DNA of 38,665 bases from a virus, in the IMG/VR virus record IMGVR_UViG_3300022752_000177, positions 1 through 38,665 of that record; one strand, given 5' to 3'. The notes below the pieces were generated by a model that worked only from the letters and a program-made list of their open reading frames with translations, made no database searches and was not told where the DNA came from. Shown in pieces: positions 1 through 38,665 of this stretch. The stretch's first letter is position 1. The number at the start of each line of letters is the position of its first letter. The position numbers and the translations under genes were made by a program.

Positions 1-43
1 GGTTAGGGGGGTTTGGGGGGAAAGGGGGCGGGAAAGGGAGGGG
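1..43 (+). other. G-rich tract with G-quadruplex potential (left edge)
   Basis: The plus strand has G-runs at 6-11, 15-20, 24-28, 30-32, 36-38 and 40-43, separated by one to three non-G bases. This fits the usual four-tract quadruplex pattern. On the minus strand it encodes the Pro/Ser/Thr-rich linker of the initiator-like protein. It directly adjoins the TCACG/CGTGA array. Confidence 0.65.
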
Positions 44-264
44 TCACGTTCGTCACGTTGTGTCACGTGACATTCCGTGACTTCACGTGATTGCCCGTGA
101 TCCGCTTCAGCACCATTGCGGCGGCGGCTCTGCCGCTCCCGATCCTTTGCGCGGCGAGATTCAAGCGCGGCTTCGGCAACCTTCTTTTCAGCGAGCAGCA
201 TGGCGACATCCTCAATAATGTCGCTTGAAACTCCCGCTTCGATAAGGCGCGCGATAAGGCTCAT
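1..264 (-). CDS. Replication-initiator-like protein, N-terminal half (open at the window edge)
   Basis: This is an 88-codon frame that starts at ATG 264 and is still open at position 1. The N-terminal ~50 residues look helical (MSLIARLIEAG...) and end in a basic stretch rich in Arg. A polar linker follows (QSREVTE...), then a low-complexity Pro/Ser/Thr tail (PSLSRPLSPQTPLT). The start overlaps the stop of the preceding gene in an ATGA. In my recollection, phage replication (lambda O-like) proteins of proteobacterial phages have this layout, with a helical N-terminus, a Pro/Ser/Thr/His linker and a C-terminal W..FL..R..K.AP domain. That C-terminal domain is found at the other end of this window, so the gene is probably cut by the linearisation point. 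The function is inferred from family resemblance and from its place before the primase. Confidence 0.7.
   Translation of the reverse strand, partial: MSLIARLIEAGVSSDIIEDVAMLLAEKKVAEAALESRRAKDRERQSRRRNGAEADHGQSREVTECHVTQRDERDPSLSRPLSPQTPLT
44..100. repeat. 10-bp-phased TCACG/CGTGA half-site array (candidate iterons)
   Basis: CGTGA occurs at 66-70, 76-80, 86-90 and 96-100, exactly 10 bp apart. TCACG occurs at 44-48, 53-57, 63-67 and 83-87. Two of these form the perfect palindrome TCACGTGA (63-70 and 83-90), 20 bp apart. The array is inside the initiator-like reading frame, so its 10-bp period is not a codon effect. Helically phased half-sites inside an initiator gene resemble the lambda origin within gene O. 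That role is inference. Confidence 0.6.
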
Positions 265-1512: not shown

Positions 1513-2456
1513 GCGGCTTCTCCAAACAGTCCCCCAAGCGCGTCTTGAGCGTTTTCAAGGTTGCGCACCGCTTGGCGAAAGTAGGACGGCTTAAGCTCGA
1601 TCCCGATGCCCTTGCGACCCATCTGGACGGCGCAAAACACTTCGCTGCCGATTCCGAGAAACGGTGTCAGTACGGTGTCGCCGGGGTTGCTCCACAAGTC
1701 GATGCATCGCTCGATCACATCAAGCTGCAGCGGGCTAATGTGCTGCTCGTCCTTCTCGTCGCGGCCGCCACGGTATTGCAGGGTGCGGGTCTGATTGATG
1801 TCAGTCCAGACCGGCGAGGCGTACCGCTGCCAGACCTCAATACTGTACCAGTTGCGGCCATCGGTCGGGGTGGTGAACTTGCTTTGGTCGGGTTCATCGG
1901 TGCCGCTGTAGCGGTCAAAACACCCGCTCACCGGCTCGGGGTTGTCTCCCGGCTTGCGAAACGTCACCACGTAATCAGCCAGACCCTGCCCGCTGATGGT
2001 GCTGTCCTTTACAATCTGCTTGTGCAGGAGCCGAATGGACTTTGTGCGCTGCTGGGCAACTACGGGGTCTTTCCAGATGCAAACCTCGCTATGGAAAATC
2101 CAGCCCGCGTCCTCATACGCGCGGATGACCTCGCCGCGAAAGTCTCGCATGCCGATATGGCCGTGCCGGATCTTTGACATGGGAAGCTGCATCACATGGA
2201 CCGAGTGGAGCCTTCCCGGCTTGGTGACGCGCAGAAGCTCTGCAATCAGGAACGCATAATGCTCCCAAAACTGCGGACCATCGTTGTTGGAAATGTCGCG
2301 GTCGAAGTTGCTAAACTTATACAGCCCCTCGAACGGCGGCGAGTGAATGCCAAAACCGATGCTATCGCCGGGGATCGCGCGGATCACTTCGCAGCTATCG
2401 CCCTGATAGATGGCATACTTGTCGTTTACGACTTGATCAACGGCCTTAATGGTCAT
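1509..2456 (-). CDS. DNA methyltransferase, N6-adenine/N4-cytosine (beta-class order)
   Basis: The protein is 315 residues. It transfers methyl from SAM to an exocyclic amino group of A or C in DNA. The catalytic motif IV is H-S39-P-P-F42 near the N-terminus. The SAM-binding motif I is TPFLGIGSE (264-272) near the C-terminus, followed by G-I-G-I-E-L. The order IV then I, with a long middle region as target-recognition segment, is the beta-class arrangement. SPPF rather than DPPY leaves adenine versus cytosine open. It directly follows an SNF2-like helicase gene (ATGA overlap). No cognate endonuclease is visible. It probably protects phage DNA from restriction or marks DNA during replication (inference). 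Confidence 0.85.
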   Translation of the reverse strand: MTIKAVDQVVNDKYAIYQGDSCEVIRAIPGDSIGFGIHSPPFEGLYKFSNFDRDISNNDGPQFWEHYAFLIAELLRVTKPGRLHSVHVMQLPMSKIRHGHIGMRDFRGEVIRAYEDAGWIFHSEVCIWKDPVVAQQRTKSIRLLHKQIVKDSTISGQGLADYVVTFRKPGDNPEPVSGCFDRYSGTDEPDQSKFTTPTDGRNWYSIEVWQRYASPVWTDINQTRTLQYRGGRDEKDEQHISPLQLDVIERCIDLWSNPGDTVLTPFLGIGSEVFCAVQMGRKGIGIELKPSYFRQAVRNLENAQDALGGLFGEAA

Positions 2457-3844
2457 GCGGCTTGCTCCAGAAATGCGGGAAGCTGAACAGGAATAGTGGG
2501 GTTGTAATTGGGCGTGTCGCGCACCGATCCGCGCACGGCTTTGCTCGACAAGTCCGCCATATGCAGGACCATCGCAGCGGCCATGCGGTCGGCGTCGGCT
2601 TCCTTGCGCTTGATGTTGGCAACGGTTGCGCCTTCAAGCTCGCTGGCAATGATATGAGCCGTTACAGTGCGCGTCTGGCCAAACCGCCAGAACCGGCGAA
2701 CAGCCTGATAGAACTGCTCAAAGCTATCGTTCAGACCAACAAAGCCGGTATCGGCGCAGTGCTGCCAATTCATGCCGAAACCAGCCAGAGAAGGCTTGGT
2801 GATCAGGTGCCGAATGTCGCCATCACTGAACGCAATCAGGATGCGCTCTTTCTCACCTTCAGACAGACCGCCATGCAGATTGACCGCGCCAGGGATCAGC
2901 TTTGCAAGCGTCTCGGCTTCGGCGTTGAGGTTGCACCACCAGACAAAGGGCCGATCCTTCGGCGTAATGTCTGCGGCCAGTCTGCACCGTTCTTCTACCG
3001 TGCCCCGGCGCGCGGCGATGCGCTCTTGCAACGTCTCGGCCTGCATCGGGAAAAGCATTCCCGTTTCAACATTTGGGCGATAGTCTGCGGCCACGATGTG
3101 CGACACGAAATTAAGCGGCGGCAGGTCATAGCCATCGTTCGGATAGCCAAGATCGGACGGCTTGCGCAGCATCACCGACCAAGACGCCATCCACTTCCAG
3201 AACTCGTTCTCGGCGTGACCCTTCAATCGCCACTTTTGCGTATCGCCGCCATCATGGGTAAAGAACGTGGCGAGCATGTCGGTATAGGACATGATGCCCA
3301 AGAACTCGGCATGATTGCCAAGCTCCATGAAGTCGTTCGGGGCCGGTGTGGCAGTCGCGGCAAGGCGAAACGGGATCGACTGGCAAGCCGCAATCAGCTT
3401 GCTCCGATAGTGACCTTCTGTGTTCTTAAGGATCGAACTTTCGTCCAGAATGACACCGCCAAACTCGGACAAGTCAAAGTGATCAAGCTTCTGATAGTTG
3501 GTGATATTGATGCCGGGACCGCAATCCTCTTGCCTAGCAACGACGCGCGCGGGAATGCCGAACTTGTCCGCCTCGCGCGCCATCTGATTTGACACGGCAA
3601 GGGGGGCGAGGTGCAACACGTTGCGCCCGGTTTCGTTGTGGACCGCCTGCGCCCATGCAAGTTCCATCAGGCTCTTGCCCAGACCAGTGCCAGCAAGCAG
3701 CGCGGCCCGGCCTCTACGGAGCGCCCATGCGACAATATCGCGCTGATGCGAAAACAGACAGGCAGGAAGCGCCGGAACGTCCTTAAACCCCGTCATAGGG
3801 TCGGTGATTGCCTTGCGGGCAAGAAATGCTGCGTAATGATCCAT
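2453..3844 (-). CDS. SNF2-like superfamily 2 helicase / DNA translocase
   Basis: The protein is 463 residues from ATG 3844 (a GTG one codon earlier is possible). It is an ATP-driven DNA translocase. Motif I/Walker A is AGTGLGKS (51-58). Motif II is D134-E-S-S in place of DEAH. Motif III is TATPAPND (164-171). Motif VI is QAVRRFWRFGQTR (380-392) with the arginine fingers. Motifs IV-V lie around LHGGLSEGEKERIL and TKPSLAGFGMNWQ. There is no nuclease domain, unlike type III Res subunits. The ATG overlaps the stop of an upstream mini-ORF (TGATG), and the stop overlaps the methyltransferase start, so helicase and methylase are probably co-translated. Fork remodelling or recombination is a likely role. 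Confidence 0.85.
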   Translation of the reverse strand: MDHYAAFLARKAITDPMTGFKDVPALPACLFSHQRDIVAWALRRGRAALLAGTGLGKSLMELAWAQAVHNETGRNVLHLAPLAVSNQMAREADKFGIPARVVARQEDCGPGINITNYQKLDHFDLSEFGGVILDESSILKNTEGHYRSKLIAACQSIPFRLAATATPAPNDFMELGNHAEFLGIMSYTDMLATFFTHDGGDTQKWRLKGHAENEFWKWMASWSVMLRKPSDLGYPNDGYDLPPLNFVSHIVAADYRPNVETGMLFPMQAETLQERIAARRGTVEERCRLAADITPKDRPFVWWCNLNAEAETLAKLIPGAVNLHGGLSEGEKERILIAFSDGDIRHLITKPSLAGFGMNWQHCADTGFVGLNDSFEQFYQAVRRFWRFGQTRTVTAHIIASELEGATVANIKRKEADADRMAAAMVLHMADLSSKAVRGSVRDTPNYNPTIPVQLPAFLEQAA

Positions 3845-3921
3845 CACACGCGCCCCATGGTAAACGCATGGTTAGCAGGTATGTTTAACGTCCGTTTACG
3901 GAACAGTGCTAACTTCGGCAT
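3844..3921 (-). CDS. Possible leader mini-ORF (25 aa)
   Basis: This 25-residue basic frame (MPKLALFRKRTLNIPANHAF...) has a GAGG ribosome site about eight bases upstream of its ATG. Its TGA overlaps the helicase ATG as TGATG. It could be a small protein or a translational coupler for the helicase. It lies in the short gap after the C5-methyltransferase-like gene. Evidence is limited to start, stop and spacing. Confidence 0.4.
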   Translation of the reverse strand: MPKLALFRKRTLNIPANHAFTMGRV

Positions 3922-3937: not shown

Positions 3938-4681
3938 TTACGCGATGTCGCGGATATGGATGGAATCGCAAGAAGTGGGCGGGAAGCTCTGGGGGAACTC
4001 CCCGCCCTCAGTTTCCGCGCGGCGGGAGAGGGTCGCAGGCGCGCGGGTGTTCAAAAGGTAATCGCCCCACTGGTCGGCCATGGCATTTGCCAAACCGGCA
4101 AAGAAACGCGCACGCTCCTTGCCCCGATCTGGCCCAGGGGACATGAAAAACACGCGCTCCCGCTCTTTGCGGGGCAGTGCCATCATTTCAGCGTAAACGT
4201 CATCGGTTGGTGTCAGCCGGGGCAAATCCCACAACGCCAGCCCGGTTTTCTTTTGCTCGGGGTGCCCATGCTGCCACGGCTGAACGTACTGCACATCAGC
4301 GTTGAACCACTGGCGCAGAGCCGGAAAAATCACGCTAGCAGGGTTCTCAAGAGCAACGTGCGGCGCATTGGACAGCGCCAGTTCAACCGTGCCGAGCGTC
4401 CAGCCAATGGCCTCGACGCGCTCAAAATAGAGCGCCTTCCCCATGCCGTAAGTGCGATTCCCACAAACAGCCATTTTGGTGCAAGGCAGGAAAAGAATAA
4501 CCAAATCCCACGTGCCGTTAATGGCCTCGCGGCAATCGCCTTGGATGTGCCAGCGGGGATCGCCCTCGGTCGGCAGCAGGTCGCAGGACCATGCATCGAA
4601 CCCGCGCGCTCGGAAGGCATCCCGAACCGTGGCGGAATACTCGCAAGCCACCAGGACCTTGATTTGCGCCGGATCGCTCAC
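3938..4681 (-). CDS. C5-cytosine DNA methyltransferase-like protein
   Basis: The protein is 247 residues from a GTG whose G-TGA overlaps the upstream stop. An in-frame ATG at 4753 would add 24 residues, but these overlap the upstream gene and fall outside the family-like region. The start of the fold is KVLVACEYSATVRDAF, a SAM-binding motif I variant. It is followed by P66-C67-T (catalytic-loop PC of motif IV) and E112-N-P114 (motif VI ENV-like). The C-terminal half has QPWQHGHPEQKKTGLALW and a late FFAGLANAMADQWG. This matches a widespread family of small phage cytosine-methylase-like proteins. Whether it is active is not shown by sequence. Self-protection or antirestriction is likely. Confidence 0.75.
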   Translation of the reverse strand: MSDPAQIKVLVACEYSATVRDAFRARGFDAWSCDLLPTEGDPRWHIQGDCREAINGTWDLVILFLPCTKMAVCGNRTYGMGKALYFERVEAIGWTLGTVELALSNAPHVALENPASVIFPALRQWFNADVQYVQPWQHGHPEQKKTGLALWDLPRLTPTDDVYAEMMALPRKERERVFFMSPGPDRGKERARFFAGLANAMADQWGDYLLNTRAPATLSRRAETEGGEFPQSFPPTSCDSIHIRDIA

Positions 4682-4782
4682 ATCGGCTCCCCATTGTTCC
4701 GCTTGATCCACTTGCCCACCAAAATGCCCAGCGGGAGGGACAGGATCATCCATGCAGCGAGGGTGAGGAGCGCGGTGGTCAT
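4678..4782 (-). CDS. Tiny single-span membrane protein (34 aa)
   Basis: The product is 34 residues. A hydrophobic segment spans residues 4-23 (ALLTLAAWMILSLPLGILVG) and is followed by a short basic tail KWIKRN, so the C-terminus probably faces the cytoplasm. ATG and TGA each overlap the neighbouring gene by four bases. No family is recognised. Its place between the regulator and a DNA methylase in the early operon suggests an early accessory role rather than lysis. Confidence 0.6.
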   Translation of the reverse strand: MTTALLTLAAWMILSLPLGILVGKWIKRNNGEPM

Positions 4783-5851: not shown

Positions 5852-6132
5852 CCCGCCCCACCGCCCACCTATCCACCACCCTTACGGTCTACTGGACCGA
5901 CCGCAGCCACGAGCGCGAATGCGAGGTCGAGGTAGACTATACCTATGACGGCGAGACGCTGAAGATCATCAAGTCGCAGGCGCTGGGTAACACCGATAGC
6001 TGCGATGACGATTGGTACGATGAGCAGTTGTGGGAAGGCGTCAGCGAGGTTTGTGACGAAGCCTATGCCGACTGGTGCGCCGACTATGGCGACTACCTGT
6101 ACGAGCAGGCGCGTGATCGGAGGGCAGCATGA
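5848..6132 (+). CDS. Acidic hypothetical protein (94 aa)
   Basis: The protein is 94 residues and strongly acidic (SCDDDWYDEQLWEGVSEVCDE). The N-terminal half looks like beta-strands (LTVYWTDRSHERECEVEVDY). Small, very acidic phage proteins sometimes act as DNA mimics or inhibitors, but nothing here proves that. ATGA overlaps at both ends keep it in the operon. Confidence 0.65.
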   Translation: MTRPTAHLSTTLTVYWTDRSHERECEVEVDYTYDGETLKIIKSQALGNTDSCDDDWYDEQLWEGVSEVCDEAYADWCADYGDYLYEQARDRRAA

Positions 6133-6944: not shown

Positions 6945-7039
6945 TCCTCCGCGCCCTTATCGCAGACTGGCGCACTGGTGCCATGATCTGCGGTCCGTTT
7001 CCTTTTCTGTTCACTTTTGTTTGGATTGTGACGCCATGA
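6941..7039 (+). CDS. Tiny membrane protein (32 aa)
   Basis: The product is 32 residues. A hydrophobic run at residues 15-30 ([16 protein letters not shown]) could span the membrane, with a basic N-terminal end. It is coupled by ATGA to the gene before, and its stop overlaps the next start. It is too short for family assignment. Confidence 0.5.
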
Positions 7040-7653
7040 CCACCAAAAAATACGAAGTCCGCAACCGCTGGACCAATGCCATCCAGTTTACCGCCGAGAT
7101 CGAAGTCACGCCGGACATGCCGCCGCGCGTGAAGCTCGGGCTGGCAGTCAGGTGGGGAAGGCGCAACGATGCCGACCTGCGCGGTGCCGTCCTGAGCGGT
7201 GCCGACCTGAGCGATGCCGACCTGCGCGGTGCCGACCTGAGCGATGCCGACCTGAGCGATGCCGACCTGCGCGGTGCCGTCCTGCGCGGTGCCGACCTGA
7301 GCGATGCCGACCTGCGCGGTGCCGTCCTGCGATCTTACAAGGCAGACCTGTGGATGATCCTCACCATGGCTCGCCATGAAGTGCCCGCGCTGGTCAAGGC
7401 CCTCCGTGACGGCAAAGTGGACGGCTCAACCTACACCGGGGAATGCGCCTGCCTTGTCGGTACGCTGGAAAATGCTGGGGCGGTCAATCTGCCGCATTCC
7501 GCAAGCAGTCCCGCAGAACAGTGGTTTGCCATGATCCGCAAGGGCGACAAGCCTGGCGATGATACCGGCGGCGGATTTGCTGCGGCCAAGGCTTTCGAAT
7601 GGGCGACGGAATACTGCGACCTCACCGGGATCGCGCTGCCGGTGGAGGCGTAA
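7036..7653 (+). CDS. Pentapeptide-repeat protein
   Basis: The protein is 205 residues from the ATG that overlaps the preceding stop. Eleven tandem pentapeptides, A(D/V)L(R/S)(G/D), occupy residues 46-100. Such repeats build a right-handed beta-helix; some members (Qnr, MfpA) mimic DNA and inhibit gyrase. The N-terminal ~45 residues and the C-terminal ~105 residues are non-repetitive. The latter has a conserved-looking C-x-C-L-V-G-T block. Eleven repeats give under three helical coils, short for a DNA mimic. Many phages carry comparable proteins of unknown role. Confidence 0.75.
7171..7335 (+). repeat. Eleven tandem 15-bp coding repeats
   Basis: These are the DNA units encoding the pentapeptides. 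They alternate between two main versions, GCCGACCTGCGCGGT and GCCGACCTGAGCGAT, with some GCCGTCCTG variants. The near-identity of synonymous positions implies recent expansion by slippage or unequal recombination. They also keep the two other plus frames and the minus strand free of stops. Confidence 0.85.
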
Positions 7654-7788: not shown

Positions 7789-8507
7789 ACGCTCAGACAA
7801 AGATTGAACCGGCAGGACTTGACCTGTTGCGCGTCCCGTTCCCGGCTCACCAAATCAGCAAGCTGCCCAAGGGTGGCGTCATGCTCGATTACGTGGGTCA
7901 CGCGGCGCTCACCGACCGGCTGCTTGATGCCGATCCCAACTGGACATGGGAACCGCTGGCATTCGATCCTAATGGCCTTCCTGCATACGACCAGAACGGC
8001 GGGCTTTGGATCAAGCTCATCGTCTGCGGAATGACCCGCCTTGGCTACGGACACGCGGGCACCAAAAAGGGCGGCGATGCCGTCAAGGAAGTCATCGGGG
8101 ACGCGCTGCGCAATGCAGCCATGAGGTTCGGCGCTGCACTCGACCTTTGGCACAAGGGCGATTTGCACGCTGATGAAGAGCAGGCAGGGGAGACACAGCA
8201 GCAACGCGAGGTTAGCTCCCCGCCTGCCAAACGTGAACCGCAGCACAGCGCCCTGAAGACGGCCTACAGGCAGTTTGTGCACGAGGCCAATGGTTGCGGC
8301 GATGCCGACGAGCTGGCCGCATACCTGGCCACTCCTGACGCGCTCAAGATCGTGCGCGAGATCAAGGCCAAACTGCCCCACATCTGGGATGGCAGCAACT
8401 GGCCTGAAAACACCCCGCGCCCCGATGAATGGGAGCCGCTGGCCGACTTCATCACCCGTCGCCAGCGTGAATGCGCCGAGGCGACTGCCCGCTACATGAC
8501 CGCCTGA
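7785..8507 (+). CDS. Rad52-like single-strand annealing protein
   Basis: The protein is 240 residues with a GTG start and a GGAG site. Residues 12-125 fit the Rad52/DdrA-type annealing fold: an N-terminal LRVPFPAHQISKLPKGG, a beta-sheet segment LDYVGHAALTDRLLDADPNW, WIKLIVCGMTRLGYG, and the diagnostic DAVKEVIGDALRNAAMRFG helix. The rest is a poorly conserved tail that may carry protein contacts. Annealing proteins pair complementary single strands during phage recombination. The next genes (SSB-like tip protein, HNH protein, NinB) make a recombination block. Confidence 0.65.
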   Translation: MNAQTKIEPAGLDLLRVPFPAHQISKLPKGGVMLDYVGHAALTDRLLDADPNWTWEPLAFDPNGLPAYDQNGGLWIKLIVCGMTRLGYGHAGTKKGGDAVKEVIGDALRNAAMRFGAALDLWHKGDLHADEEQAGETQQQREVSSPPAKREPQHSALKTAYRQFVHEANGCGDADELAAYLATPDALKIVREIKAKLPHIWDGSNWPENTPRPDEWEPLADFITRRQRECAEATARYMTA

Positions 8508-36672: not shown

Positions 36673-36819
36673 TCATTGGCTGCGGTCACTGGTCTGCTCC
36701 TGCGAATGAAAACCGAATGGCTTTGTCTTTGACTCGTCCTTGCGGTAATCGAACCAGCGCGCGGTTGACTTCGGCGCTTCGTTCGTACGGTCGTTGCGAT
36801 TGCGCGGGCGGTAGGTCAT
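36673..36819 (-). CDS. Small basic hypothetical protein (48 aa)
   Basis: The product is 48 residues (MTYRPRNRNDRTNEAPKSTA...), hydrophilic and basic. Its ATG overlaps the primase-helicase stop (ATGA). No family is recognised. It is probably unstructured or nucleic-acid bound. After its stop there is only a nine-codon frame before the 179-residue gene. Confidence 0.55.
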   Translation of the reverse strand: MTYRPRNRNDRTNEAPKSTARWFDYRKDESKTKPFGFHSQEQTSDRSQ

Positions 36820-38234
36820 GCGTACGGGTCCGCTTCAATCCGGCTCTTGAAAGCGTTCATGCAGGTGTGAACCACGCCGCACTTGCCGGGCAGGCCCATG
36901 CGGACCTTGACCACTGACAAGGTTGCGCTGTTCACCGTTTTGTCGGGGCGATGATAAATCAGGCCGTAGTCAGCCTTGTTCGCCCAGTTGGCCGATCCTG
37001 CAATGTCATACAGTCCTGGGGGCGGGACGGTGCCGTCCTTCATCTTCATCGGCTTGGTGGGGTGCGCCACTACCCACAGTGCAATGTTGTACCGCTTGGC
37101 AAACCGCTTCAGTGCGCGAATTGCCCGCCCGATGTAGTCGGTTTCGGTTTCGTCGTGGTTGCGCTTGTGCTCCAGCTCATTCCACGGATCGAGCACCACC
37201 ACCTTTGCGCCATTCCGCACGACTGCAATGCGCGCCAGTTCAAGGTAGGCTTCAAGCGTGATGTCTTCGTCATCGTCGAGGGCATTGGAAATGACGGTCA
37301 TCATGCTTTCGATCTGGTCGTAAGCAGCGCGGCGCTTCGGATGGTGCGGGAAGTCCTCAAAGCTGCATCCGAGCAGAGCACGGGCGATACCGTCGCGTAA
37401 AATGGGTTTGGGAAGCGTCTCAAAGCTGGCGATGCAGACCGGCACGTTCCGATCAATACAATGCGCAAGGATGGTGTTCATCACCGTGGACTTGCCCATG
37501 TTGGAATAACCGGAAAACACGGTGAACGTGCCGAGGACGATCTGCATGTGTTCGTCAAGGGCTTCGATCCCAGTCGGCATGGCTTGAATGTCCACACCAT
37601 CGGGGAAGTCTGACATGCGGTAGAGGCCCACCACCGGAAAGGGCTTTGCCAGCGTCAGGACTTCGGCGGCGGCGCGCTGGCCGTGCTTTACCAGCACATC
37701 GTTCAAATCCTTGCAGCCCTCAGGGTACTCGACAAACTTGCAACGGTCCTTGCCCAAAATGCAGGCGAGATCGTGAGCAAGGGTCTGGCCGGGTTTGTCA
37801 CCATCGGTTGCGAGGATGATCGAAGGGATGGCCTTCAAGGCATCCTCGTGCATTTCCCACAAAAACGAATACCGCTTGGCGTTCAGCGGGTCGTCCGCCT
37901 TTTCAGCCGGCGCGCCGTTGGGGACACTCACGGCATGGGGGAAGCCACAAGCAATAGCGGCAAGTGCGTCAAACTCGCCCTCAGTGATCACAAGCGTGCG
38001 AGCGCCCTTTAACGCCTCAGCGTTCCAGAAGCAAAGCTTTCCGCCCTTGTCCATTTCGTGCTGCTTCTCGGCGGTGCGCCGATACTTGCGGTTCACGATC
38101 TGCCCGTCGTGCATGTAAGGGATGGACAGCCAGTACGCGTCGTGCCGCCGAACCGTTGTAATCCCGAACTTCTCCGCCAAATCGGATGGGATGCCGCGAG
38201 CCTGAAGCCATTCCCTGTGCGGTCCTGCAATCAT
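36816..38234 (-). CDS. Primase-helicase (TOPRIM plus DnaB-like, T7 gp4-like)
   Basis: The reading frame gives 472 residues from the ATG with AAAGGA upstream. TOPRIM primase residues are E85 (LVITEGEFDA) and D144-G-D146 (LATDGDKPGQ). The RecA-like helicase has Walker A GYSNMGKST (242-250) and Walker B VVVLDPW with D349, then a VVAHPTKP sensor. It makes RNA primers and unwinds the fork, as in T7 gp4 and Twinkle. The zinc-binding domain expected at the N-terminus is encoded immediately upstream in another frame, so the true product may be a fusion made by frameshifting. Confidence 0.85.
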   Translation of the reverse strand: MIAGPHREWLQARGIPSDLAEKFGITTVRRHDAYWLSIPYMHDGQIVNRKYRRTAEKQHEMDKGGKLCFWNAEALKGARTLVITEGEFDALAAIACGFPHAVSVPNGAPAEKADDPLNAKRYSFLWEMHEDALKAIPSIILATDGDKPGQTLAHDLACILGKDRCKFVEYPEGCKDLNDVLVKHGQRAAAEVLTLAKPFPVVGLYRMSDFPDGVDIQAMPTGIEALDEHMQIVLGTFTVFSGYSNMGKSTVMNTILAHCIDRNVPVCIASFETLPKPILRDGIARALLGCSFEDFPHHPKRRAAYDQIESMMTVISNALDDDEDITLEAYLELARIAVVRNGAKVVVLDPWNELEHKRNHDETETDYIGRAIRALKRFAKRYNIALWVVAHPTKPMKMKDGTVPPPGLYDIAGSANWANKADYGLIYHRPDKTVNSATLSVVKVRMGLPGKCGVVHTCMNAFKSRIEADPYA

Positions 38235-38388
38235 CGGTCGTTCCTTTGAAACCACAGTGATGGCAGAACCAAACCATTCCGCCGTTGTCGGTTTTGCTCA
38301 CGTTGAGGCAGGGTTCCTTGCGGTGCCTGCGGTGTTCGGAGCATTGCGGGCAAGTCTGCTTGCCCAGCTTGGCGGGGGCCCAGGTCAT
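38017..38388 (-). CDS. Primase zinc-binding domain in a separate frame
   Basis: The first ~50 residues are a primase zinc ribbon: C13-P-Q-C16, a linker with C27, then W-F-C42-H-H-C45-G-F-K-G, matching the zinc domain of T7-like primases. After about residue 52 the frame (to 123 residues) is only a shadow of the primase gene and looks noncoding. The primase frame takes over at +1 relative to this one, near GGTTTCAAAGGAACG (about 38240-38255). So this may be a separate zinc protein with a read-through tail, the first part of a frameshifted fusion, or evidence of a one-base sequence error. The ATG overlaps the previous stop. Confidence 0.65.
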   Translation of the reverse strand: MTWAPAKLGKQTCPQCSEHRRHRKEPCLNVSKTDNGGMVWFCHHCGFKGTTDDCRTAQGMASGSRHPIRFGGEVRDYNGSAARRVLAVHPLHARRADREPQVSAHRREAARNGQGRKALLLER

Positions 38389-38665
38389 ACGCCCACCGCC
38401 ACGGTGCTACTTCGGGCCGGTGTCACCCACTCAGCCTTGAAACTTTGCCACCCTCGAGTAATTGTTTCGGTAAATGCCTGTTCCAACGGCCAACCAGCTT
38501 TCGCGGCTTCCCGCTCCATGCCAGCAACCACGGTCTCAGTGACGGGAGCACGCTTTTTGCGGCGAACCTCCAGAAAATCCGCCCATGTCTGCGCACTCAC
38601 CCCTTCCGGCTTGGCCGGTGCCCTTACGCGCGCGGGTTTATTATCCGGGTGGGTATGGGTGGGGG
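38385..38665 (-). CDS. Replication-initiator-like protein, C-terminal half (open at the window edge)
   Basis: The frame is open to the right edge. Complete codons begin at 38663, giving 92 residues before the TGA. It starts in a PTHTHPDNKPARVRAPAKPE linker and then has a compact domain with W..FLEVRRKKRAPVT, a central REAAKAGW segment and a final TRGWQSFKAEWV. Phage replication proteins often end this way. A GTG at 38600 could start a 71-residue product, but it has no clear ribosome site and would begin inside the conserved domain. I therefore read this as the distal part of the gene that leaves the window at position 1. Joining the two ends directly is out of frame; one extra base (mod 3) restores the frame. 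Its stop overlaps the primase zinc-domain start in an ATGA. Confidence 0.7.
   Translation of the reverse strand, partial: PTHTHPDNKPARVRAPAKPEGVSAQTWADFLEVRRKKRAPVTETVVAGMEREAAKAGWPLEQAFTETITRGWQSFKAEWVTPARSSTVAVGV
38647..38665 (+). other. G-rich tract with G-quadruplex potential (right edge)
   Basis: G-runs at 38647-38649, 38651-38653, 38657-38659 and 38661-38665 have loops of 1, 3 and 1 bases, a canonical tight quadruplex pattern. If the molecule is circular, this tract is continuous with the G-rich tract at positions 1-43. Together they would form about 60 bp of strongly strand-asymmetric DNA in the middle of the split initiator gene. Confidence 0.65.

Follow-up and report, generated by a model that had tools for sequence, protein, structure and literature searches.

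Replication origins have, to our knowledge, been mapped in few phages. In lambda and the Stx phages, the origin lies inside gene O, and the initiator has several adjacent binding sites within its own gene (PMC7466680, PMC3985674). Gene 18 of the P22-like Salmonella phage L is O-like and harbours six 11-bp repeats that are described as a proposed origin (PMC8022706). Direct repeats in gene 38 of SPP1, at oriL, are reported to be bound by gp38 (PMC6316719), and the replisome organizers of the lactococcal phages TP901-1 and Tuc2009 are likewise reported to bind direct repeats in their own genes (PMC8965321). For SpdA2 of the Streptomyces plasmid pIJ101, gel-shift experiments were reported to show binding to the sequence CGTCACGTGACG in its own gene (the sps/SpdA2 system), and loss of the CGTCACGTGACG site was reported to affect segregational stability with no significant change in copy number (PMC4170104).

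We analysed a viral contig of 38,665 nucleotides (IMG/VR record IMGVR_UViG_3300022752_000177, positions 1 to 38,665, hereafter called the window), one end of which carries a phased array of six degenerate TCACGTGA sites (44..100, no strand assigned), which we consider to be candidate initiator-binding iterons. The sites, of which one or both halves are intact, are located at 44-51, 53-60, 63-70, 73-80, 83-90 and 93-100, with centre-to-centre steps of 9, 10, 10, 10 and 10 bp. The four CGTGA units at exactly 10-bp spacing that had been pointed out in a first-pass annotation of this DNA are indeed present on the plus strand, at 66, 76, 86 and 96, as are the two perfect palindromes 20 bp apart, which correspond to complete TCACGTGA sequences at 63-70 and 83-90. 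Four TCACG units are also found on the plus strand (44, 53, 63 and 83), but their description as mostly 9-10 bp apart was slightly generous, since the spacings are 9, 10 and 20 bp. The units are thus real, but they do not represent two separate repeats as initially described; they belong to a single palindrome, TCACGTGA, set on a 10-bp lattice. As also noted at that stage, all of them lie inside coding sequence, in the 3' part of one ORF on the minus strand (264..1).

This ORF starts with an ATG at 264, is open at the window start and comprises 88 codons, which correspond to the N-terminal part of an initiator gene. The C-terminal part is found at the other end of the contig (38385..38663, minus strand) and codes for an O-like domain that matches phrog_678 (replication initiation O-like; E 3.6e-19, profile positions 214-290 of 346), whereas the 88-residue N-terminal part alone, P0001, gave no match in phage records (E 0.01), Pfam or PHROGs. 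In the full-length relative L136, which also matches phrog_678 (E 2.7e-20), a single gene covers the two halves, identity being 56% over 78 residues for the N-terminal and 59% over 85 residues for the C-terminal part, and L136 shares the linker T-H-T-H-P-D-N-K with which the C-terminal part in the window begins. Judging by sequence, 264..1 and 38663..38385 together encode an O-like initiator, as identified by the C-terminal half and by L136, and the presence of both halves and the linker in a single gene of L136 indicates that the break of the contig very probably falls within the initiator gene. When the two ends are joined directly, the reading frame is not maintained, and a terminal repeat is absent, indicating that a few junction bases are missing or overlapping. 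Both ends harbour G-rich tracts within the initiator gene (1-43 and 38641-38665), which are probably the reason why the assembly broke there.

The order of elements in the gene is a basic segment, the array and the O-like domain. The basic segment, RRAKDRERQSRRRN (residues 37-50; 115..156, minus strand), lies 5' of the array in the gene and is the proposed DNA-reading helix, the presumed roles of the two protein parts being those of reader and recruiter. Next downstream of the initiator is an ORF for a 123-residue protein (38017..38388, minus strand), followed by a gene for a primase/helicase with Toprim and AAA_25 domains (36816..38255, minus strand, phrog_239), whose start is uncertain and which overlaps the preceding ORF; the latter enzyme is a possible partner of the initiator. 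On the other side, genes coding for a RusA-like resolvase (431-784), two DNA methyltransferases (1509-2456 and 3938-4753) and a helicase (2453-3847), all on the minus strand, are found near the initiator gene. The downstream neighbours of ten relatives are mixed, with one clear primase/helicase and five cases without any PHROG match.

We defined equally spaced arrays as those of a 5-mer with at least three different letters and at least four exactly equal spacings of 6-25 bp. None of 200 first-order-Markov versions of the window contained such an array, and the only other one in the real window is a 15-bp, five-codon repeat at 7170. It is part of a tandem repeat of approximately 11 copies (7167-7331) in the plus-strand ORF 7021-7653, reads A-D-L-x-x and represents a contrast case, namely a repeat with a codon period; we presume that this ORF resembles a pentapeptide-repeat protein. 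The phased array at 44..100 stands at the contig edge beside the G-rich stretch where the assembly broke, which might point to chance or an assembly artefact, but the results with the Markov windows and the presence of the same kind of array in complete genes, in L136 and other relatives as well as in genomes of Sphingomonas, make the probability of this explanation negligible. The total number of CGTGA in the whole window is as expected (93 vs 89.9), and TCACGTGA by itself is not rare, with two occurrences in the window and at least two in 13 of 100 shuffles. What is improbable is thus the clustering and phasing of the sites.

An array inside a coding sequence might also be the by-product of selection for a linker peptide, V-T-x-x-H-x-x-S-R, as 30 bp correspond to ten codons, and three 10-bp units therefore make a ten-residue peptide repeat. 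When we kept the protein fixed and redrew synonymous codons 20,000 times, at least eight units were obtained at a frequency of 0.00005, and a 10-bp TCACG chain of at least four at a frequency of 0.0002. Synonymous codon choice thus seldom produces the array. Moreover, 11-bp arrays at the same place in other genes encode the residues in another order, and three relatives with arrays of other sequences (L158, L162 and L189, see below) have different peptides but still display 9-11-bp phasing. We therefore regard the by-product explanation as very improbable, in line with the initial view that protein repeats fail to account for the array.

One property of the array is imposed by the genetic code. 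In long runs the coding strand must carry TCACG, as CGTGA repeated every 10 bp gives an in-frame TGA, and TCACG is indeed on the coding strand in all 80 CGTGA arrays found within basic-region frames. We therefore rejected the orientation of the array relative to the gene as evidence, since it is a mere constraint. Similarly, the 9-bp step at 44-53, which encodes R-D-E-R-D, and that found in L151 arise where CGTGA is read twice running as R-D, which the stop constraint can explain.

To collect relatives, an alignment of the N-terminal module as far as the basic segment (hereafter N-module) was used as the query, in a version with a few residues more (A1) and one without them (A2), and the search patterns were drawn from the first helices, outside the array. 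This yielded 34 loci, 24 of which are distinct after removal of near-identical ones; L179-L188 were left out because they are on the same contigs as loci already in the set. The first-pass annotation had considered that a lack of conservation of the half-sites in relatives would speak against its proposal. Among these N-module relatives the half-sites are conserved, as 20 of the 24 distinct carriers harbour, within 60 bp, at least three CGTGA/TCACG located at the basic segment or immediately behind it, and in a few of them one unit falls within the codons of the basic segment itself. With the synonymous-codon null model, P was below 0.01 in 15 of these 20 and below 0.05 in 19, the last one being L149 (0.13). 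The clusters comprise 2 to 7 sites each. In the 20 carriers and the window, 57 of 68 gaps between site centres are exact multiples of 10, as compared with 4 of 29 background gaps in other parts of the 24 loci.

The same N-module and array precede various types of C-terminal domains, as classified by eye, including W-x-D-[FL] (L136, L150 and L151), D-W-Q-P (L140, L141 and L142) and D-F-L-L (L143, L155 and L157), and a P-x-K-V-G-K type is found in two array-pattern loci with a related arrangement (L045 and L106). The joining of one N-module and array to different C-terminal domains shows that the array goes with the N-terminal side of the protein. Genome searches, in which the query genomes are included in the counts, gave at least 4 of 396 genomes in the order of Sphingomonas sp. 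Leaf32, at least 9 of 397 in the family of a Novosphingobium genome and at least 1 of 385 in its class, and they added at least eight further N-module carriers. A CGTGA lattice is present in three of the latter (L176, L177 and L390), and a weaker lattice, made of three GTCAC units only, in L178. In two genes of bacterial genomes (L387 and L388), both of which look decayed by eye, the N-module is found without a phased array.

Four of the 24 distinct carriers are devoid of a CGTGA cluster (L158, L162, L189 and L148). In L158, the basic segment KREYDREYQRERR comes with a TCGTACGA array; L162, like its relative L163, has a TAACG/CGTTA array with the basic segment RRQREFKARNR, and in L189 a GTGAC/GTCAC array, with nearly no CGTGA, follows the basic segment GALRMRRHRKRH. 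The steps are of 9-11 bp, and P values with the synonymous null model are below 0.001 for each of these three, both strands being taken together; the exact-phase routine flagged a lattice in L189 only, and L158 and L162, with their 9-10-bp steps, were tested separately. L148 contains the N-module without a significant array (P 0.17-0.44), and we withdrew a TCCACGGA array that had been seen there by eye, given these values. L137, which has a related N-terminal part and the segment AERQRRYKARHRN, harbours four TAACG/CGTTA within approximately 26 bp, which are not outstanding in the chain count.

The L189 type is also represented by two of the carriers from the genome searches, L389 and L391, in which both the basic segment and the array are of that type, and the C-terminal domains of the three proteins all differ. 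The segment GALR[TM]RR[WH]R[EK]RH is found in these three carriers only in the 3.24 Mb of fetched DNA, and each of them has 7-10 GTGAC/GTCAC and one CGTGA/TCACG within 200 nt. The 12-mer GTCACNNGTGAC is not exclusive to this type, as it occurs in 13 distinct contexts in the fetched DNA, including L106, L226 and L390. In a few types, the letters of the array and the basic segment thus differ jointly, which supports binding by the product of the gene itself. The differing C-terminal domains suggest that the basic segment and the array move as a unit; common descent of this cassette may also account for the pattern, the numbers per rare type being small. A one-residue code, with Gln in the basic segment for CGTGA and an aromatic residue for CGTTA, was considered and rejected, as Tyr, Trp or Ser is found at this position with 11-bp CGTGA arrays.

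Another protein might bind the array instead, for instance a repressor of the phage or a nucleoid or cell-cycle factor of the host, and the fact that L148 retains the N-module without a significant array would be compatible with such a role. However, in the exceptions tested the array letters change with the basic segment that precedes them, across C-terminal domains and genomes, and we consider a foreign reader to be quite improbable.

We also looked for similar arrays beyond the sphingomonad group. A scan of viral contigs for four CGTGA yielded at least 119 stretches at 10-bp spacing and 68 at 11-bp spacing, and for CGTTA the numbers were 60 and 62, respectively. We therefore rejected pattern counts alone as evidence; it is the location of the arrays that counts. 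In phage initiators, CGTGA arrays with 10- and 11-bp spacing are located between a run like RKREQRERE and a linker that is acidic or rich in proline. The order of residues in the linker peptide differs between the two spacings (VT..H..SR vs SR..H..VT), indicating that the DNA is kept and the peptide is not. We selected 73 array proteins with an upstream basic stretch (80 before clustering) and scanned a systematic sample of 20 of them against PHROGs. Seventeen matched families of replication-initiation, replisome-organizer or DnaD-like annotation, and among the remaining three, L004 and L046 had no PHROG match and L233 is a tail protein.

A crude placement test, which scores an open frame of at least 120 residues with a basic stretch upstream, was applied to the arrays. 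If any frame is accepted, 49 of 95 distinct 10-bp CGTGA arrays among the matches listed and 31 of 64 distinct 11-bp arrays are so placed, compared with 23.8% and 22.8% of random places taken from the loci themselves; with the longest frame only, the numbers are 49 of 95 among the matches listed and 28 of 64, vs 12.3% and 11.6% at random. This test thus leaves about half of the CGTGA arrays outside initiators. For CGTTA arrays, it shows no enrichment (2 of 48 and 3 of 52, vs 6% at random). CGTTA arrays with a spacing of 10 or 11 bp were identified in four initiator-like genes (L310, L315, L321 and L374), in which the array reads CGTTA on the coding strand, avoiding in-frame TAA. Some 10-bp CGTGA arrays, of the CGTGAATATG/CGTGAGGATG type, are not initiator-like (L003, L006, L012, L026, L090, L091 and L104, and also L040, L054, L088, L105, L009, L058 and L082); those in L009, L058 and L082 stand right before an ORF starting with MSAIQRLYE or MTNAITKLYE.

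Relatives of the C-terminal domain were analysed as well. The search matched 33 phage records, and none of the 14 that were fetched harbours a CGTGA array; with two IMG/VR contigs included, a CGTGA chain is absent from all 16 C-domain relatives. Four of the 16 contain another phased 5-mer that was not reached in 200 codon shuffles (e.g. five GAACA in L128 and three GATAT in L125), four have one at a frequency of 0.010-0.025 and eight have nothing, with the proviso that this codon shuffle lets peptide repeats through, as in L134. In the phage records, the O-like C-terminal domains are joined to several different N-terminal parts (L122-L135 and L138), and phased 5-bp words of other sequences are found upstream of the O-like domain in L125, L128, L133 and L138. 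In bacterial genomes, phrog_3729 proteins were found in 7 of 398 (L380-L386), and the ORFs examined in these loci contain no chain of three phased units. A comparison of window positions 40-105 with plasmids gave nothing beyond two short matches at E 5, and the DNA of L011, a Pseudomonas-type locus, had no match in E. coli genomes.

Directly after the array in the gene, the tract 1..43 (minus strand) is pyrimidine-rich on the coding strand (37 of 43) and encodes a Ser/Pro linker. We propose that it represents an asymmetric flank or melting side. Similar tracts are found in part of the relatives. In a set of 97 array genes, at least three of which are in both the pattern and protein sets, the 140 bp that follow the array include a 60-mer composed to at least 75% of purines or of pyrimidines in 28 genes, compared with 1.7% of 1,940 random places, and such a strong strand bias is absent in the other 69. 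The AT content of the flank is not raised in the sphingomonad group (median 0.40 vs 0.39 for the background) and is modestly raised in other initiators (0.47-0.50 vs 0.39), so that an AT-rich melting element is not apparent. In the window, the flank is strand-asymmetric, not AT-rich, and the contig ends there. A GC-skew analysis, as advised in the first-pass annotation, did not support an origin at the array, since the detrended minimum is at 5,910 (P 0.04 for the amplitude).

The structural model of L136 consists of a short helix and a long one (residues 14-53), with the basic segment at the end of the latter, then a low-confidence linker and a helical C-terminal domain. No winged helix is seen in this model, and a fold comparison, with no PDB chain at Z>=5 among 193, was uninformative. 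The model suggests that the basic helix might be the DNA reader in the sphingomonad group. That of L011 shows a folded N-terminal domain (residues ~10-100), a helix with a basic run (116-140), a disordered linker and a helical C-terminal domain. In a second look, the N-terminal domain of L011 was found to align with CRP-type winged helices (best Z 8.8); Foldseek gave no match for the model at E 0.001, and the family profile has a weak match to DnaT in the C-terminal domain (E 0.0025).

From the sequence data, the array most likely represents iterons for the initiator encoded by the same gene and, together with the pyrimidine-rich flank, a replication origin. The initial proposal of a candidate origin inside the gene of its own initiator is supported by the conservation of the lattice at the same place in the gene and by the fact that, in a few types, lattice and basic segment vary jointly, from which we infer origin activity. 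In the mechanism that we envision, protomers or dimers of the initiator would read the DNA with the basic helix (residues ~37-50) and occupy the six sites from the same face of the DNA, with one protomer or dimer for each helical turn. Crowding in this complex would strain the adjoining strand-asymmetric tract until it opens, and the C-terminal domain of the initiator would then deliver the phage primase/helicase.

Alternatively, the initiator might bind the array in its own gene for autoregulation, copy control or segregation, with replication starting elsewhere. The closest precedent for this possibility is sps/SpdA2 of pIJ101, in which CGTCACGTGACG is bound inside the gene of the binder and is reported to have a role in stability (PMC4170104), and the 10-bp core of the SpdA2 site, GTCACGTGAC, is also found in the window at 62-71; the outermost bases, TGTCACGTGACA at 61-72, differ from those of CGTCACGTGACG. 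Nevertheless, the protein of the window is an initiator with an O-like domain, its relatives have O-like or other replication C-terminal domains, the array is longer than the set of SpdA2 sites and is phased, and the same gene-plus-array layout is found in many initiator families. Such a role without origin function is thus unlikely in our view, although less so than a foreign reader.

If the array is indeed the origin, short sites one helical turn apart, located just after a basic segment in an initiator gene, would constitute a signature independent of their letters, which would help read origins from sequence in uncultured phages. A more tentative proposal, which we hold to be possible but somewhat doubtful, is that the basic reading helix and the one-turn lattice form a swappable cassette, moving and changing jointly and independently of the helicase-recruiting C-terminal domain, and that the reader of the sphingomonad group would be devoid of a winged helix and would bind GTCACGTGAC as a helical dimer with a basic end, in the manner of eukaryotic bZIP/bHLH-Zip proteins. 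The same core is also described as a site of the eukaryotic bHLH-Zip factor TFEB (PMC10626434). The linked change of the array and the basic segment, and a reader possibly lacking a winged helix, should surprise specialists. Owing to the former, a code of origin recognition could be tested through swaps. If binding takes place without a winged helix, these short-helix proteins would be very small replication initiators, reading DNA in a manner best known from eukaryotic transcription factors.

The first-pass annotation called the origin lambda-type, which is appropriate for the proposed mode of working but not as a statement of membership. The window resembles the lambda and Stx phages in that the repeats lie inside the initiator gene, here ORF 264..1. 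However, lambda has four 19-bp repeats and the window six 8-bp palindromes at 9-10-bp steps. In addition, lambda O reads DNA with a winged-helix-type domain, and none is predicted in the sphingomonad group, based on the L136 model. The repeat of phage L is TGTCCAACGGA, and the available text of that report mentions neither a palindromic structure nor co-variation with a basic segment (PMC8022706). SPP1 differs in that its melting element is reported to be AT-rich and that a second origin is present (PMC6316719), and the accessible parts of the reports on SPP1, TP901-1 and Tuc2009 do not describe the repeats as a one-turn palindrome lattice (PMC6316719, PMC8965321). Our literature search, which covered mainly openly accessible papers, found no report of a one-turn lattice in phage initiators. 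For SpdA2, a palindrome nearly identical to that of the window, CGTCACGTGACG, lies in the gene of its own binder, with a basic segment before the sites. By sequence search, the SpdA2 sites in pIJ101 (L392) are at 8142 and 8175, 33 bp apart, and the basic segment RQRAYEARRQREA precedes the two TCACGTGA sites (8142-8182), as in the phage initiators. SpdA2 differs in that it is not an initiator, has two sites only and harbours a CxxC motif in its N-terminal part; the 88 residues of P0001 contain no CxxC. Origins inside initiator genes are already known, and the one-turn lattice appears to be the new feature.
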